NCBI GenBank assembly: GCA_034439475.1
Contig: JAWXAN010000074.1
Span: forward strand, 1-64,000
Direction: 5' to 3'
Origin: Candidatus Zixiibacteriota bacterium
GTDB lineage: Bacteria; Zixibacteria; MSB-5A5; GN15; FEB-12
DNA length: 64,000 nt
Each line of letters opens with the position of its first letter. Position 1 is the stretch's first letter. The translations under genes and the position numbers were made by a program. The notes below the pieces were generated by a model. That model saw only the letters and a program-made list of their open reading frames with translations, was not told the origin of the DNA and did not search any database. Shown piece after piece: positions 55,582-63,604 of this stretch.

Positions 55582-56274
55582 TTGGCGGAAAAGCACAGAA
55601 AGGATTATTACAGAATCTCGATGTTTTGGAAGTTACTGCTTTTGGCTGGTATGTCGGCTGTGATTGTATTCAGCTTTATTACTGTTGCGCCGCAATCACA
55701 AATTGGCGAGTCCTCGAGAATCTTCTACTATCACATTCCGCAGGCATGGATCTGCGTGATCGCCTTCGCCATCTCGACCATTTATGGACTCAGGTATCTC
55801 AAAACAAGAAATCTTCGCGAGGATGATATGTCAGTATCAGCTGCTTCGCTGGGTCTTCTCTTTTGCATCCTTGCCACGGTTTCAGGTTCGATATTTGCAA
55901 AAGTGACCTGGGGGTCATTTTGGAATTGGGATCCGCGTGAGACCTCGATCTTCATTCTTTTGCTTATTTACGGAGCCTATTTTGCTCTCCGTGGCGCAAT
56001 CGATATAGAAGAACGCCGGGCCGCGCTTTCCGCGGTCTATGCGATATTTGCTTTTGTAACAGTTCCGTTTCTTATATTTGTCGTGCCGAGAATCATGCCC
56101 TCGCTTCATCCATCCGATTCGATTATAGACAAAGACCTGAAGTTCACCATGAGTCCCGCTGTACGTACAATTTTTTTCTCATCGCTGATATTATTCACCG
56201 GACTCTTCTTTTGGCTGCTTCGCTTAACATCGTCAATCAAAGGGATAGCGCGGTCGCGGGAAACCGCCGTATAA
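55582..56274 (+). CDS. ccmC: Cytochrome c maturation protein CcmC
   Basis: A 230-residue membrane protein with six predicted helices, of the heme-handling CcmC/CcsA family. The tryptophan-rich heme motif WGSFWNWDPRE is present, with conserved His residues near FYYHIPQAW and SLHPSDS. CcmC loads heme onto CcmE in system I. It starts at TTG 55582; ATG 55621 is a shorter option. It is followed 119 bp later by ccmE. No CcmA, B, F, G or H is nearby. Confidence 0.9.
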   Translation: MAEKHRKDYYRISMFWKLLLLAGMSAVIVFSFITVAPQSQIGESSRIFYYHIPQAWICVIAFAISTIYGLRYLKTRNLREDDMSVSAASLGLLFCILATVSGSIFAKVTWGSFWNWDPRETSIFILLLIYGAYFALRGAIDIEERRAALSAVYAIFAFVTVPFLIFVVPRIMPSLHPSDSIIDKDLKFTMSPAVRTIFFSSLILFTGLFFWLLRLTSSIKGIARSRETAV

Positions 56275-56393
56275 ACTGGATAAATATGATGCCTTATTTC
56301 GGCAGAATGGAGTTATATTATCCAAGCGGGCAACAGGACTTTTTATTTTAGCAGCTTGTGTGAGAAAATCACCAGAAAGGCTTAGGGAATGAA

Positions 56394-56828
56394 ATGAACG
56401 CGAAATATGTAATTGGCAGTGTAATAATAGTGGTTTTTCTTACTTGGGGGGCATCGGCCTTTTTCAAGACTACCGTGCAATATGTCTCTATTCAGAATGC
56501 AGTTGCCAGCAACCGCAAAGTACAGGTGATGGGTAAGATCGATTTTAGCCGGGTCAATTATAATGCAGACAAGACCCGGCTCGAATTTGCCGTATTTAAT
56601 CCTGAAGACCAGGATACTATATCGGCCTTTCGCATGCCCGTGGTCTACTATGGCACTGTCCCGGGTAACTTCGATCAAGCCACCTCCGTTGTTCTTAAAG
56701 GTCAGCCCAATAGCGAAGGTTATTTCGTCGCCGATCAGATTCTCGTTAAGTGCCCTTCTAAATATCAGGGAGAGGACGGTGAAGAGTATCAGGATATCCA
56801 GGAAGACAAAGCGCCGACCGGGGTATAG
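56394..56828 (+). CDS. ccmE: Heme chaperone CcmE, CXXXY type
   Basis: A 144-residue protein with one N-terminal membrane anchor (KYVIGSVIIVVFLTWGASAF) and an OB-fold: QVMGKIDFSRVNYN, MPVVYYGTVPGNF, and VVLKGQPNSEGYFVADQIL-like strands. Classical CcmE binds heme through His in HxxxY. Here the same place reads LVKCPSKYQG, that is Cys-x3-Tyr, the variant known from some deltaproteobacteria and archaea. An acidic, Asp/Glu-rich C-terminal tail follows. CcmC is next door. Confidence 0.9.
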   Translation: MNAKYVIGSVIIVVFLTWGASAFFKTTVQYVSIQNAVASNRKVQVMGKIDFSRVNYNADKTRLEFAVFNPEDQDTISAFRMPVVYYGTVPGNFDQATSVVLKGQPNSEGYFVADQILVKCPSKYQGEDGEEYQDIQEDKAPTGV

Positions 56829-57123: not shown

Positions 57124-57933
57124 ATGACCGAAAAACCATCATCGCCAAAGAGTATGATACAAGCGAAACGAGTCAGCAAATTCTACGGAGATTTTGTCGC
57201 TGTAAGGGATCTCACTTTTTCCATCCCGAAAGGACAAATTGTAGCCTTTCTTGGCCCAAACGGAGCGGGCAAAACGACAACAATGAAAATCCTGTCTGGA
57301 TTCTTGTCCGCAAGCGAAGGTACCGCTGAAATTGCAGGACTCGATGTACGTTCGCATAGGCTGGAAGCTGTCAAATTCCTTGGCTATCTACCCGAGAACG
57401 GCCCGCTTTATATTGATATGACCCCGCTTGAACTCCTCAGCTTTTTCGGCGAAGCGCGAGGGATAGATTCGAAGATGCTCAAACATAGAATCGACTATGT
57501 GGTTGAGCAGTGCTCCCTCGGACAGGTACTTGAGAAACCGATAGGGAAGCTTTCCAAAGGATATCGCCAGCGGGTGGGCCTTGCTCAGGCACTGCTCCAT
57601 GATCCCGATGTGCTCATAATGGATGAACCGACAGCGGGTCTTGATCCAAATCAGATTCGTGAGTTTAGAGCAAATATTGTTGAACTTGGCAAAACCAAGA
57701 CAATTCTTCTGTCTACTCATATTCTCCAGGAAGTCTCTGCGATCGCCCAACGCGTGCTTGTCATCAACGAGGGACGCCTTGTATTTGATGGCACTCCGAG
57801 ACAGCTTGGTGAAAGCGGTGGAATCGAAGATACTTTCTACCATCTGACCGGTTTCGGCAAGACTGCTATGGCTTCAGTCCGACCTTCTGACAGCGGCGAG
57901 CAATCAATGATATCCGAAGGAGGCCGGGTATGA
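57124..57933 (+). CDS. ABC transporter ATP-binding protein (GldA-like)
   Basis: A 269-residue ABC ATPase. Walker A is [12 protein letters not shown], the signature is [20 protein letters not shown], Walker B is [15 protein letters not shown], with the H-loop STHIL. The group (GldA/NatA/CcmA-like) exports or works with ABC-2 permeases. The next gene, overlapping by 4 bp, is an ABC-2 permease fused to a GldG-like domain, so the two form one transporter. Confidence 0.92.
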
Positions 57934-60602
57934 GTTTGAACAACAGGCTTATCGCGGCAATTGTCAAAAGGGACCTGAGGCTGTATTTCAGCAATCCAAC
58001 AGGATACGTATTTATAACATTGTTCATTTTTCTGAGTGCCGCCGGCGCTTTTTGGCAGGGGAGATTCTTTGCGAATAACCTCGCTAATCTTGATCAGCTC
58101 AATCTTATATTTCCCTATATCTTGCTTTTCTTTGCTCCTGCTTTGACAATGAATATCTGGGCGGAGGAGCGCAAACAGGGGACTGATGAACTTCTGTTTA
58201 CACTTCCAGCGACAGATTTGGAAGTAATGCTTGGAAAATATATTGCCGTGCTGGGAATATACACTGCGGCTCTGGCGCTTTCTTTTAGTCATGTCTTTGT
58301 CCTCCTCTGGCTGGGCAGCCCGGACATTGGCCTGATGCTCGGTAACTATATAGGTTATTGGCTTATTGGAGCCGCGATGCTCGCGATCGGCATGTTGGCA
58401 TCATTACTAACCGCCAATTCGACAATAGCGTTTATCCTCGGAGCGCTTTTCTGCTCGGTGCTTGTCTTCATTGATTCATCGCAGATGACAGTCAGCAGAT
58501 GGCTTCAGGAATTATTAGCTCCGATAAGCGTCTTTGGCGCTTTTGGGGATTTCTCCCGAGGAATTGTGTCGTTATCGGGGCTTCTTTATTTTGGTTCAAT
58601 TATAGGTGTCATGCTCTTTTTAAATGTGATGCTTATCGGCCGCAGGCATTGGCCAGCGAAAGCCGATGGTTATCGATTCTGGCTTCATCAGTTGGCTCGC
58701 GCAGTAGCTGTTGTTTTGGCAGTAATCTCACTAAACGTAATAGTGAATCGCGGCAATCTAAGGGCCGACGTCACCGCAGAGCAGTTACACTCACTTTCAT
58801 CGGAGACAGAACAGTTAATAGAAGACCTGCCCGATGACCGCGCTGTGTTGGTGCAGGCATTTATCAGCCCCGAAGTTCCGCGTGAATATGTCGAGACGCG
58901 CGCCAATCTGATTGGAACGCTCAAAGAAATCGCCGCGATAGGCGGTGATCGGGTCCAGGTCATTATTCGTGAAACTGAGCCGTTCACAGACGAAGCTCGC
59001 GATGCCCGCGAGAAATTCAACATTCTCCCTCGCGATGTTATGACCTCCGAAGCCGCGCAGGTGAGCAGTAAGAGTGTGTTCCTTGGGGTAGCATTTACCA
59101 GCGGAGCGCGAGAAGAAGTAATTCCATTCTTTGACCGCGGCTTGCCGGTGGAATATGAGCTTACAAGAAGTCTTCGTGTCGCGGCCGATGCCAACAGAAA
59201 AAAGATAGGGATTCTCACAACTGAGGCGAAGGTATTTGGCGGTTTTGATTACCAAACAATGAACTCAAGTCCGCCGTGGCAGATAGTAAGCGAACTTAAA
59301 AAGCAATACGAGGTCGTTCAGGTCTCCGCCGAGCAACCAATAACAGATAAGCTTGATGGATTGCTTGCGATTCTTCCCTCGACACTAACACAGCCCGAAA
59401 TAGACAATCTTCAGACATATATAACCAATGGGAATCCGACCCTTATTTTTGATGACCCGCTTCCGTTGATCGACCCAGCCATGTCACCATCGGCTCCTCC
59501 GGGCGCCGGCCAGAACCCGTTCATGCAGCAGCAACAGCAGCCGCCAAAACAAAAGGGAAGTGTGAGCGGACTAATGAATGCAGTAGGTATCAATTGGAAC
59601 TCGACTCAGCTTATCTGGGACGGATACAATCCCCACCCTGACCTCGGACAACTCCAGCCTGAGATAGTCTTCATCGGACGTGGAAATGACAACGCCGAGG
59701 CTTTCAATGACTCGGTTTCGGCGACATCGGGCTTGCAAGAGGTGGTCGCACTCTATTCAGGATACATCTACAAAGCAGGCAATAGCCCGCTCCAGTTCAA
59801 ACCCCTGCTAAAGACCGGCCATCTCTCCGGCATGCTTCCCTGGGACCAAATTGTCCAACGGAGCTTTTTCGGTATGGGTCTCAACCGCAATCCAAAACGT
59901 GTGCCGACAGGGGAGTCTTACATAATTGCCGCTCAGGTCAAAGGAAAGCCATTAGCAAATCCCGATGATACCGTTGTGTCATCACCTTCTCCAATCCATG
60001 TCATAATGGCCGCAGACGTGGATATGATTTCAGACCAATTTTTCCAGTTTCGTGAACGCGGAATGGAGAATTTCCAATTCGATAATATTGCATTCGTTCT
60101 CAACAGCATGGATTTACTCGTTGGAGACGAGTCGTTTATCGACCTGAGAAAGAAACGCGTCAGACATCGGACTCTCAAAACTGTGGAATCACAGACCCGG
60201 CAATTTGTCGAGCGTCGACTTGAGGAAGAAAAGCAGGCGGAGGTCTTTGCTCAGCAGGCTCTCAATGAAGCCCAGCAGAGGCTGAATGAGAAAGTTGCCC
60301 AGGTCCAGAGCCGTACCGATCTCGACGATCAGGCCAAGCAGATAATGGTGAAAAACCTCCAAGAAGTGGAAAACCGCCGCTTTGAAGTCAGCAAAGGAAA
60401 TATCGAGGCGAAAAAAGAAGCGACGGTGGCTCGTAGCAAAGAGACTATGGAGACTGCTGTTCTTTCAATTCAAAGCCGCATCAAGACGTTGGCGGTCTTG
60501 ATTCCGCCGATTCCGGCGCTCGCACTCGGTGTAATGATTTTTATCAGGCGAAGACGGCGGGAGTTTGAGGGAGAGTTGCAATCACGAAGGCTGAGGAGCT
60601 AA
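57930..60602 (+). CDS. ABC-2 permease fused to GldG-like extracytoplasmic protein
   Basis: 890 residues in two parts. Residues 1-235 are an ABC-2 type permease with six helices (GldF-like: [40 protein letters not shown]). From about 250 a membrane helix leads to a GldG-like domain ([20 protein letters not shown] ... [15 protein letters not shown]) with a disordered Pro/Gln-rich insertion near residue 530 and a coiled coil at about 750-830, ending in a final membrane helix. In Bacteroidetes gliding systems GldF and GldG are separate. Fusions like this are common in other phyla, where the function is unknown. Confidence 0.85.
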
Positions 60603-60605
60603 GAG

Positions 60606-61973
60606 ATGACCGAAACGAAGAAGACACTGTTTTTTCTCGCTGTTGCCGGGCTATTGGTATTGCTGGCTTTTATTGCCGCCCCAAAAACGATCACACCCGA
60701 GGCCTTCAAGGATCTCGGGACAAAATTCTTTCCGGAGTTTACCGATCCGAATGAGGCGACAACGATGGAAGTTGTGGATTACGATGATGCAACCGGGTCG
60801 TCCCGCCCATTCAAAGTCACCTTCAATAACGGTCGCTGGACAATTCCTTCGCACAATGATTATCCGGCTGATGGCAAAGACCGCCTTGCAAAGACTGCCG
60901 CCGGTGTCATAGACATTAACAAAGATGATTTCAGAACAGATTCCCCGACGGAGTATGAAGCAATGGGGGTTGTTGACCCGCTTGACGAAAGCTCTGCAGG
61001 TCTTTCGGGCAGGGGTAGACGAGTGACGATCAAGGGACAAGATAGTCGTGTGCTGGCCGATTTCATTATAGGAAACGAGGTTGTCGACCGCCCGGGTTTG
61101 CGTTTTGTTCGTATACCGGATGAAAAACGAGTCTATGCCTCAAAAGTAAACGTCGATATTTCCGCTCGCTTCGAGGATTGGATTGAGCCAGATTTGCTCA
61201 AAGTCACTGGAAACAAGATAAGTCGCGTCGTATTGAAGGATTATTCGATTAATGAGCGGACACTTTCAGTGGAGCAACGAGATGTGATAACATTGGTAAA
61301 CCAGTCAGGGGTATGGAAATTCGACAAGTCCGGCAAATCCGGCAAATCCGGATCGCCCGATACTACCGTTGTCCAGTCGCTCATTAAAACGCTTGATGAG
61401 CTTGCGATTGTAGGAGTCAGACCAAAACCGGCAGCCTTGACCGCAGCGCTGAGTGGTAAAAGCCCGATGACCTCGATATCGCAGGCCGACTGGTTATCAT
61501 TGCAGAGTAAAGGGTACTATTTGACCCGTGAAGGTCAACTCCTATCTAATGAAGGAGAACTTCAGTTCTCGACCGAAGAAGGACTTAAATATACGCTTAG
61601 ATTTGGCGAAGTCGCGTACGGTACAGGTCTTGCGCTGACAGCAGGGGCCAGCGAAGCGGAGCAGGCCGGTAGCGGTGGTGGCGCTGAAAATCGCTACTTG
61701 TTCGTCTCGGTTGATTTTGATAACAACTCACTCGTAGAGCCGCCAAAAGCATCGGATATGACTTTTAAGAACAAGCCTGACAGTTTGCTTTCGGAGGAAG
61801 AGAAACAACAGTGGACTATAAACGATATTTGGCAGAGCTGGCAGAATAAAGTTTCTGCGAACCGAAAGTCGGTGGATGGTCTCAACGAAAGATTTTCACA
61901 TTGGTATTATGTGATTTCATCGGCCAGTTTTGATAAATTGCGACTGAAGCGCAAAGATTTGATTAAGAGTTGA
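60606..61973 (+). CDS. DUF4340 domain protein of the Gld-like transporter set
   Basis: A 455-residue protein with one N-terminal membrane helix (TLFFLAVAGLLVLLAFIA) and a long extracytoplasmic part with the repeated beta units of DUF4340 (VTFNNGRWTIPSHNDYPADG, ADFIIGNEVVDRPG, FVRIPDEKRVYASKV). DUF4340 proteins regularly sit behind the GldA-GldFG type transporter, and it starts 4 bp after the previous stop, so it belongs to the same complex or pathway. A short Lys-Ser-Gly repeat (KSGKSGKSG, near 61330) lies in a linker. The function is unknown. Confidence 0.82.
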   Translation: MTETKKTLFFLAVAGLLVLLAFIAAPKTITPEAFKDLGTKFFPEFTDPNEATTMEVVDYDDATGSSRPFKVTFNNGRWTIPSHNDYPADGKDRLAKTAAGVIDINKDDFRTDSPTEYEAMGVVDPLDESSAGLSGRGRRVTIKGQDSRVLADFIIGNEVVDRPGLRFVRIPDEKRVYASKVNVDISARFEDWIEPDLLKVTGNKISRVVLKDYSINERTLSVEQRDVITLVNQSGVWKFDKSGKSGKSGSPDTTVVQSLIKTLDELAIVGVRPKPAALTAALSGKSPMTSISQADWLSLQSKGYYLTREGQLLSNEGELQFSTEEGLKYTLRFGEVAYGTGLALTAGASEAEQAGSGGGAENRYLFVSVDFDNNSLVEPPKASDMTFKNKPDSLLSEEEKQQWTINDIWQSWQNKVSANRKSVDGLNERFSHWYYVISSASFDKLRLKRKDLIKS

Positions 61974-62836: not shown

Positions 62837-63604
62837 CTACAAACAGACCGGCGCAGGGCCACCGATGAAGAGATATGCGATCATATATGTTAAATCAGAA
62901 ATATCAATTGTGCCGTTGGGTGAGCCGTCCATATTTGCCGCGCCCAAATTTGCCGGCGTTTGAAGAGATATAAAAAGGTAATCAATAAACACCGTCAAAT
63001 CAGAAATATCAACAAAGCCCTCGGGGGAATCATCGATGTTACCGCATACAAACGGAGCCCGCGGCGCAACCTGAATTGCTATACCGACAAAGACCGGTGT
63101 GAACATCTTTTCTGAGAAATCACCGATATATGGCATCATCATGAAATTGCCGCCGGGGGGTAAAAATCCATTCTGAATTGTCATTTCACCGGGCTTGAGT
63201 CCAGTAAAATAAATATTCACAATAGCGCCGTTACCACGAGGCAAAGCCTTCATCTCCGGACCTGCGAGAAAAGCTGAGAGAACCGAGGTGTCGGAAAGCA
63301 ATCCGTCCGCATTTATCGCGCCGCCTATCCTCAAATTCATTATCTCGGCGTCTGCCATGCGGCCGATATAGACAATAGAATCGAAGCGAGCCATGCCGGA
63401 ATCGACACTTGATGTGATGAGTCCAATGTTGAAGCACTTGATTGGCTGATCGTTACTTATGGAAAGACTAATGGGAAGAGAGCGGCCGATCTGGAGGGAA
63501 GCAGATTCGATCTTTATTGTGTCGGGAGCCGCAATATCCTGAGCCCAACTCGAGAGTGTGAATGCAAGAACAAGACACGATGAGAGAGTGAGTATCCGTC
63601 TCAA
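62837..63604 (-). CDS. Secreted protein with two dockerin type I repeats
   Basis: 255 residues. The signal peptide is LTLSSCLVLAFTLSSWAQ. Residues about 25-180 form a beta-rich cohesin- or Ig-like domain (LPISLSISNDQPIKCFNIGL, AIVNIYFTGLKPGEMTIQNG). The C-terminus carries two Ca-binding dockerin-type loops, GNIDDSPEGFVDISDLTVFI and ANMDGSPNGTIDISDLTYMI, in tandem. Such tails are very frequent in Zixibacteria and related FCB lineages, where no cellulosome is known. It starts at TTG 63604 with an AGGAGG site. The partner of its dockerins is not in the window. Confidence 0.82.
   Translation of the reverse strand: MRRILTLSSCLVLAFTLSSWAQDIAAPDTIKIESASLQIGRSLPISLSISNDQPIKCFNIGLITSSVDSGMARFDSIVYIGRMADAEIMNLRIGGAINADGLLSDTSVLSAFLAGPEMKALPRGNGAIVNIYFTGLKPGEMTIQNGFLPPGGNFMMMPYIGDFSEKMFTPVFVGIAIQVAPRAPFVCGNIDDSPEGFVDISDLTVFIDYLFISLQTPANLGAANMDGSPNGTIDISDLTYMIAYLFIGGPAPVCL

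Follow-up and report, generated by a model that had tools for sequence, protein, structure and literature searches.

A cysteine-type CcmE of a Candidatus Zixiibacteriota genome as the very probable heme chaperone of a CcmH-less System I* pathway with an enlarged CcmF

The CcmE protein described here very probably serves as heme chaperone in cytochrome c maturation by a System I* pathway, which operates without a CcmH partner. Its gene lies in the window, i.e., the whole 64,000-nucleotide stretch of Candidatus Zixiibacteriota DNA that was analysed, which is contig C74 of a 2.66 Mb draft genome (82 contigs, 98.7% complete). The pathway core CcmA, CcmB, CcmC, CcmD, CcmE and CcmF is present in this genome, this CcmE is the only one found, and the pathway is reduced as well as split. 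System I* dispenses with CcmH, which System I of E. coli requires. System I* is known from Desulfovibrio, where it was reportedly described by Allen in 2006 and by Goddard in 2010, and from archaea; the Desulfovibrio system is the best-tested one free of CcmH, and that of D. desulfuricans reportedly functions in E. coli in the absence of CcmH. The CcmE and its pathway belong to this already known system, with the gene cluster fragmented here. The CcmE variant itself is already known; the part worth testing is a feature of CcmF, the periplasmic segment of which is about twice as long as, or longer than, that of the CcmFs used for comparison. No report of System I* in Zixibacteria, or of a doubled CcmF periplasmic unit, was found in the titles and abstract starts of the open-licence literature. 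The coordinates of the features are given in Table 1.

Table 1. Features of the window and of related contigs of the same genome
Feature	Position	Strand	Remarks
ccmC	55582..56274	+	TTG start; membrane protein loading heme onto CcmE
ccmC-ccmE gap	56275..56393	+	no intact ccmD_alt; most relatives have ccmD_alt here
ccmE	56394..56828	+	ATG start, 144 aa; helix anchor and OB-fold, very probable heme chaperone; Cys heme site (C120 in CPSKY)
GldA-like ATPase, fused GldF-GldG-like permease (890 aa), DUF4340 protein	57124-61973		directly downstream of ccmE
Protein with weak dockerin-type match	62837-63604		NF041540, 23.4 bits (cut-off 29)
ccmD_alt, 37 aa	L038 4715-4828 (contig C60)	minus	directly after ccmB
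ccmF	L004 8134-10389 (contig C66)		IspH/LytB gene adjacent
Frame with four CXXCH	L148 1371-3011 (contig C23)		candidate cytochrome c substrate

Identification and heme-binding motif of CcmE

The protein could be identified as CcmE using the Pfam model PF03100 (63.5 bits, cut-off 24.6, E 2.5e-17), and the NCBIfam CcmE models gave weak matches, none of which reached its cut-off (at best 48.8 bits where 126 are required). Its motif is LVKCPSKY, with Cys at residue 120 and Tyr at residue 124. In a profile alignment, C120 shares its column with the Cys of the D. vulgaris protein (2kct) and with the His of its E. coli counterpart (1sr3, 8ce8). An earlier note, made from the DNA letters, had described a CXXXY-type CcmE with CPSKY instead of HxxxY beside ccmC; the description held on each point, and ccmC ends 119 bases upstream of ccmE. 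The predicted structure (mean pLDDT 80.7; below 50 for residues 125–144) comprised a helix and, after it, an OB-fold whose last strand directly precedes Cys120, and its fold matched the known CcmE structures 8ce8, 1lm0, 1sr3 and 2kct.

Among relatives, CPSKY was present in 33/33 distinct CcmEs including the protein under study (33 of the 55 matches were inspected by sequence), and it was also carried by all five CcmEs from more distant members of the phylum. The motif is therefore not a matter of chance. The 80 named loci likewise encode CPSKY, but they are not independent, since the alignment-based CcmE scan by which they were found used VKCPSKYQ as one of its two patterns. According to the accessible part of PMC3601427, CPSKY is the commonest variant CcmE motif (25/36). 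Covalent attachment of heme through the Cys of CcmE is reported for D. desulfuricans and M. acetivorans in the accessible parts of PMC9084895 and PMC3601427, and noncovalent binding of ferric heme via its Cys is reported for D. vulgaris CcmE in that of PMC3884852.

Exactly one CcmE match was obtained in the genome. The earlier note had set a complete ccm operon with a second, HxxxY-type CcmE against its own reading; no such second CcmE was found in this 98.7% complete draft. Across the genomes of the family and order, CcmE was present in 54/61. A CcmE tree (65 rows) placed the protein of the window among ten rows with weak support (84/83); eight of the ten are from loci whose fetched stretch lacks the usual ccmB-ccmC junction. 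CcmE genes occur at two locations, after ccmB and after ccmC near pfk or gld genes, and the view that these represent ancient paralogue clades was unsupported; the after-ccmB group (5 rows) required 4 changes on the best tree, and strongly supported branches alone force 1. Another genome (G009) has two CcmE genes (L039 and L040), both with CPSKY, one after ccmAB near an rseP-like gene and the other between ccmC and ccmF near pfk.

Organization of the ccm genes

The earlier note considered a reduced or split pathway likely, and this genome shows both: ccmA, ccmB and ccmD_alt are located on contig C60, ccmC and ccmE in the window, and ccmF on contig C66. Of the genes proposed there for a genome search, ccmA, ccmB and ccmF were recovered and ccmH gave no match. 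The ccmC-ccmE pair sits between lexA and the gld-like ABC transporter; the GldA, GldF-GldG and DUF4340 order recurs in locus L070. On C60, CcmB passed the Pfam cut-off and missed that of NCBIfam, the CcmA-like ATPase encoded upstream of it reached 116.2 bits with TIGR01189 (cut-off 131.6), and an M50 (RseP-like) protease is encoded near ccmB. CcmA, CcmB and CcmC all scored under the NCBIfam cut-offs, and CcmB, CcmC and CcmF over those of Pfam. Two Cytochrom_C_asm proteins were found in the genome, namely CcmC and the 751-aa CcmF. The family membership of these proteins and the gene content of the pathway are thereby demonstrated.

CcmC matched PF01578 with 97.4 bits and TIGR01191 with 102.6 bits, the latter under the cut-off of 186. 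When aligned with E. coli CcmC (7f02_C), the His residues of its YYHIPQ and SLHPSD stretches fell on the E. coli His residues and its WGSFWNWDP on the WWD stretch, so both heme-ligand His and the WWD site are kept. His60 and His184 are the heme ligands of CcmC named in the accessible part of PMC8975832.

The genes ccmA, ccmB, ccmC, ccmE and ccmF occur together in 47/89 loci (those numbered from L039 onward), many of the others being broken by contig ends, and the present layout is therefore probably a fragmented version of a single A-B-C-D-E-F cluster. Related arrangements elsewhere include C-E-F near pfk and gld-like genes, and A-B-E.

The ccmC-ccmE gap and CcmD_alt

In most of the 103 loci with both genes (some genomes being counted twice), ccmC and ccmE are separated by a gap of approximately 107 nt. 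This constancy led to the recognition of a conserved single-helix protein of about 34–42 residues, which is encoded in most of the relatives' gaps, and to its identity as CcmD_alt: all eight gap microproteins that were scanned passed the NCBIfam cut-off and five of the eight passed that of Pfam. The gap of the window gave no match in a microprotein-profile search. Upon local alignment of this gap to the ccmD_alt gene of the same genome, 24 of 500 shuffles reached the score, and 105 to 419 of 500 did so with five other reference ccmD_alt genes. The genome's own CcmD_alt, at 4721-4828 of C60, matched TIGR04391 with 30.7 bits (cut-off 24) and fell just short with PF20077 (21.8 of 23.5 bits).

CcmD_alt was detected in 55/61 genomes, including every genome that bears CcmE. 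The classic CcmD model PF04995 had no match in the genome under study, and the first impression drawn from it, that CcmD is absent, was overturned by CcmD_alt. Across the 61 genomes, PF04995 gave a single match, which stayed below cut-off and came from a genome where CcmE had no match; the model missed all 54 CcmE-bearing genomes and was silent in the Thermus and Deinobacterium controls too. Thus, a small gene that is nearly invisible to the classic model accompanies CcmE in all 54 genomes.

Absence of CcmH

About one third of the bacteria with a Cys-type CcmE retain CcmH, according to the accessible part of PMC3601427, and the absence of CcmH therefore had to be tested and not assumed. No CcmH match (PF03918) was obtained at E≤0.001 in the genome, in agreement with the CcmH-less variant of System I which the earlier note had suggested. 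The model found CcmH in 0/61 genomes of the family and order (the genome under study and 60 relatives) and in 0/20 further genomes chosen for a CPSKY-type CcmE. By record title, these 20 comprise Thermoanaerobaculia and other Acidobacteria, Calditrichota, Armatimonadetes, Ignavibacterium and Zixibacteria, some of the titles being possibly wrong; the CcmE of the 'Ignavibacterium' record is near-identical to one CcmE from the order under study. The control searches in E. coli, Caulobacter, Thermus and Deinobacterium were positive. A very divergent CcmH beyond the reach of the model is possible in the genome.

In the phylum set, weak CcmH matches were obtained in 6/132 genomes, four of them over the Pfam cut-off, and 126/132 had none; a Cys-type CcmE without CcmH is thus the usual state there. 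The CcmH-like frames of the six genomes lie at eight places (L129–L136), and CcmH was the best Pfam match of all of them (21–28 bits). By eye, the proteins have one apparent N-terminal hydrophobic stretch, and no ccm genes were found in the stretches surrounding the eight frames. They are read as divergent CcmH-like proteins. Two of the six genomes hold two small CcmH-like copies side by side. The five CcmEs found in these six genomes all carry CPSKY.

Candidate substrate

The DNA pattern for CXXCH had 281 occurrences in the genome, and the reversed pattern had 120. Among 11 fetched stretches with CXXCH, one contained a multi-CXXCH frame, and the other ten had no frame holding more than one. 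This frame, on contig C23, has four in-frame CXXCH, PKD domains and, by eye, a lipoprotein-like start, and its product is a candidate cytochrome c substrate; the earlier note had proposed a search for multiheme cytochromes. Further near-CXXCH motifs and a weak MtrC/MtrF-like match were also seen in the frame.

Long periplasmic segment of CcmF

The CcmF of the genome contains WWD, the conserved His and the CcmF_C region (PF01578 and PF16327), the CcmF_C model being matched over profile positions 5–228 of 323. All 63 aligned rows retain the last conserved His. Between this His and the final membrane helix there are 220 residues, and the same segment measured 216–329 residues (median 222) in 56/56 complete CcmFs (the genome's own and 55 from CPSKY loci), compared to 112–119 residues in 9/9 comparison CcmFs. 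The 56 long CcmFs, all distinct at 95% identity, were taken from 86 ORFs with more than 100 bits, in which L002 and L004 both represent the genome's own gene; 26 rows cut by the locus edge and three fragments (two pieces from L050, where bases are unread, and one from L085) were dropped. The selection required more than 450 residues after WWD, and a re-check revealed that no other complete CcmF, short forms included, had been thrown out. The nine comparison CcmFs were hand-picked among 40 matches listed of 201 records and from two rows of a second listing.

CcmH is encoded beside 7/9 comparison CcmFs. Seven of the nine are from plasmid records (e.g., Cupriavidus, Psychrobacter and Roseobacter; 112–119 residues), and five of these adjoin CcmH (152–171 bits); no CcmH was seen in the fetched stretch of the short-CcmF loci of Rhizobium (L191) and Deinococcus (L192). 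Two Bacillota plasmids encode a CPSKY-type CcmE together with CcmH (68.5 and 64.1 bits), yet their CcmF is short (115 residues). CcmH was searched in 25 of the 56 genomes with long CcmF and found in none. In this sample, and as far as CcmH was searched, CcmF length appears to follow CcmH and not the Cys of CcmE. Two haloarchaeal CcmF-like proteins (L196 3980-6316 and L197 3833-6235) are also long (223 and 232 residues); no CcmH is annotated in these two stretches, and by eye the long region looks unlike the added bacterial unit. A tree of the CcmF membrane part was built from 37 rows (26 of the 56 long bacterial forms, with the genome's own and 25 of the 55 others, nine short and two archaeal), in which the short and long bacterial forms were on different sides (SH-aLRT 95 and 97). 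The long bacterial CcmFs may share a single origin.

An apparently repeated beta unit in CcmF

The approximately 105 extra residues look as if a beta unit had been repeated once or twice. In a single profile comparison, the first half of the segment matched the second with a probability of 92.5 (E 4.9e-7); the score was 38.3, whereas the best of 100 column shuffles reached 17.3 and reversal of the profile gave 11.8. The single unit of the short CcmFs matched each of the first two units of the long forms (E 5.2e-8 for the first, E 1.4e-6 for the second). Seven acidobacterial CcmFs have a third copy, which was close to the second (E 1e-18) and weakly similar to the first (probability 17). Conserved positions of the added unit recur in records from several phyla.

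Structure prediction for the CcmF of a relative (L048) gave a mean pLDDT of 86.1 and a beta-rich periplasmic part, and the best match of the long CcmF model was Thermus CcmF 6zmq (Z 32.2, 567 residues aligned, rmsd 2.8). The periplasmic part also had matches of middling strength among unrelated beta proteins, which were not taken as kinship, and no PDB chain scored below E 0.16 against a profile built from the added unit. No Cys column is shared by five or more of the 56 long periplasmic parts, and the addition is therefore unlikely to be a thiol enzyme. At the C-terminus, ResB of System II matched 25/28 long CcmFs at E≤1 (best 1.2e-8), but 7/9 short CcmFs matched weakly too (best 7.5e-4), and the genome's own CcmF had no ResB match at E≤0.001; the ResB likeness of the long forms is suggestive and not specific.

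Proposed mechanism and alternative explanations

In the proposed pathway, CcmA, CcmB and CcmC together with CcmD_alt would take heme from the membrane and load it onto Cys120 of CcmE. Holo-CcmE would bring the heme to CcmF, which would attach it to the CXXCH of exported apocytochromes without the involvement of CcmH. The Cys-heme link and the transfer steps would carry over from published work on Desulfovibrio and Methanosarcina. According to the accessible part of PMC10663686, the CcmH of canonical System I acts as a reductant of the substrate thiols and probably takes part in substrate binding. With much less confidence, we infer that the enlarged periplasmic part of CcmF does part of this work, namely the holding or binding of the substrate. 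In the specific form which we put forward tentatively, and regard as possible but hardly as probable, CcmF gained a tandem copy of its own beta unit (two copies in some acidobacterial proteins), and the resulting cap would hold the apocytochrome over the heme site in place of CcmH. The accessible part of the 2011 review PMC3601427 states that System I* could have compensating features in the other Ccm proteins and that bioinformatics had given no evidence of them. The doubled or tripled unit is a concrete candidate for such compensation and, if the proposal is true, would be the feature that was missed.

The chances are about even that the long CcmF is a mere form of one CcmF clade and has no relation to the loss of CcmH. 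Since the tree places short and long bacterial forms on different sides, one change could explain the pattern, and the link between CcmH and length may rest on one evolutionary event and the two Bacillota controls. The haloarchaeal long forms, which differ inside by eye, point the same way, as does the coverage of the CcmH search, limited to 25 of the 56 genomes. This explanation has to contend with the two CcmFs that are short in the company of a CPSKY-type CcmE and CcmH, with the conserved positions which the added unit keeps across several phyla, and with the third copy in the seven acidobacterial proteins.

Another explanation is that the scattered genes and missing parts are the relic of a decaying pathway which no longer makes cytochromes c. 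Dispersal of the ccm genes over three contigs, the lack of a CcmH match in the genome and a window gap devoid of the ccmD_alt copy that relatives hold there would fit such decay. It is nevertheless very unlikely: the six core ccm genes are all open frames, CcmC and CcmF retain their His and WWD sites, ccmD_alt survives on C60, a frame with four CXXCH is present, and CcmE is kept in 54/61 genomes. The idea that the downstream ABC transporter replaces CcmA and CcmB is largely refuted and retains next to no probability. The transporter lies directly downstream of ccmE, and gld-like genes follow ccmC-ccmE(-ccmF) in four other loci (L049, L050, L058 and L070), but most loci with an intact cluster have no gld-like gene within the fetched stretch. 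With a CcmA-like protein and CcmB both encoded on C60, the gld-like transporter counts as a neighbour and not as a replacement. A working System I* pathway with the window CcmE as its heme chaperone is thus the preferred reading.

Comparison with known systems

The set described here resembles System I* of Desulfovibrio, as given in the accessible part of PMC3601427, in its CPSKY-type CcmE, the lack of CcmH and the A-B-C-D-E-F core, and differs from it in that the ccm genes are in three places. With CcmABCEF of Methanosarcina acetivorans it shares a Cys-type CcmE, the lack of CcmH and scattered ccm loci, but CcmD_alt is present here and CcmF is one protein instead of CcmF1 plus CcmF2 (accessible part of PMC9084895). 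The small single-helix protein corresponds to CcmD_alt (TIGR04391/PF20077) of ccm clusters, although the copy of this genome follows ccmB on another contig and is not located between ccmC and ccmE as usual. Compared to canonical System I, represented by the Cupriavidus, Psychrobacter and Roseobacter plasmid loci, the CcmA, CcmB, CcmC, CcmE and CcmF families and the His and WWD sites are the same, whereas CPSKY stands in place of HxxxY, CcmH is lacking, and the CcmF segment spans 216–329 residues instead of 112–119.
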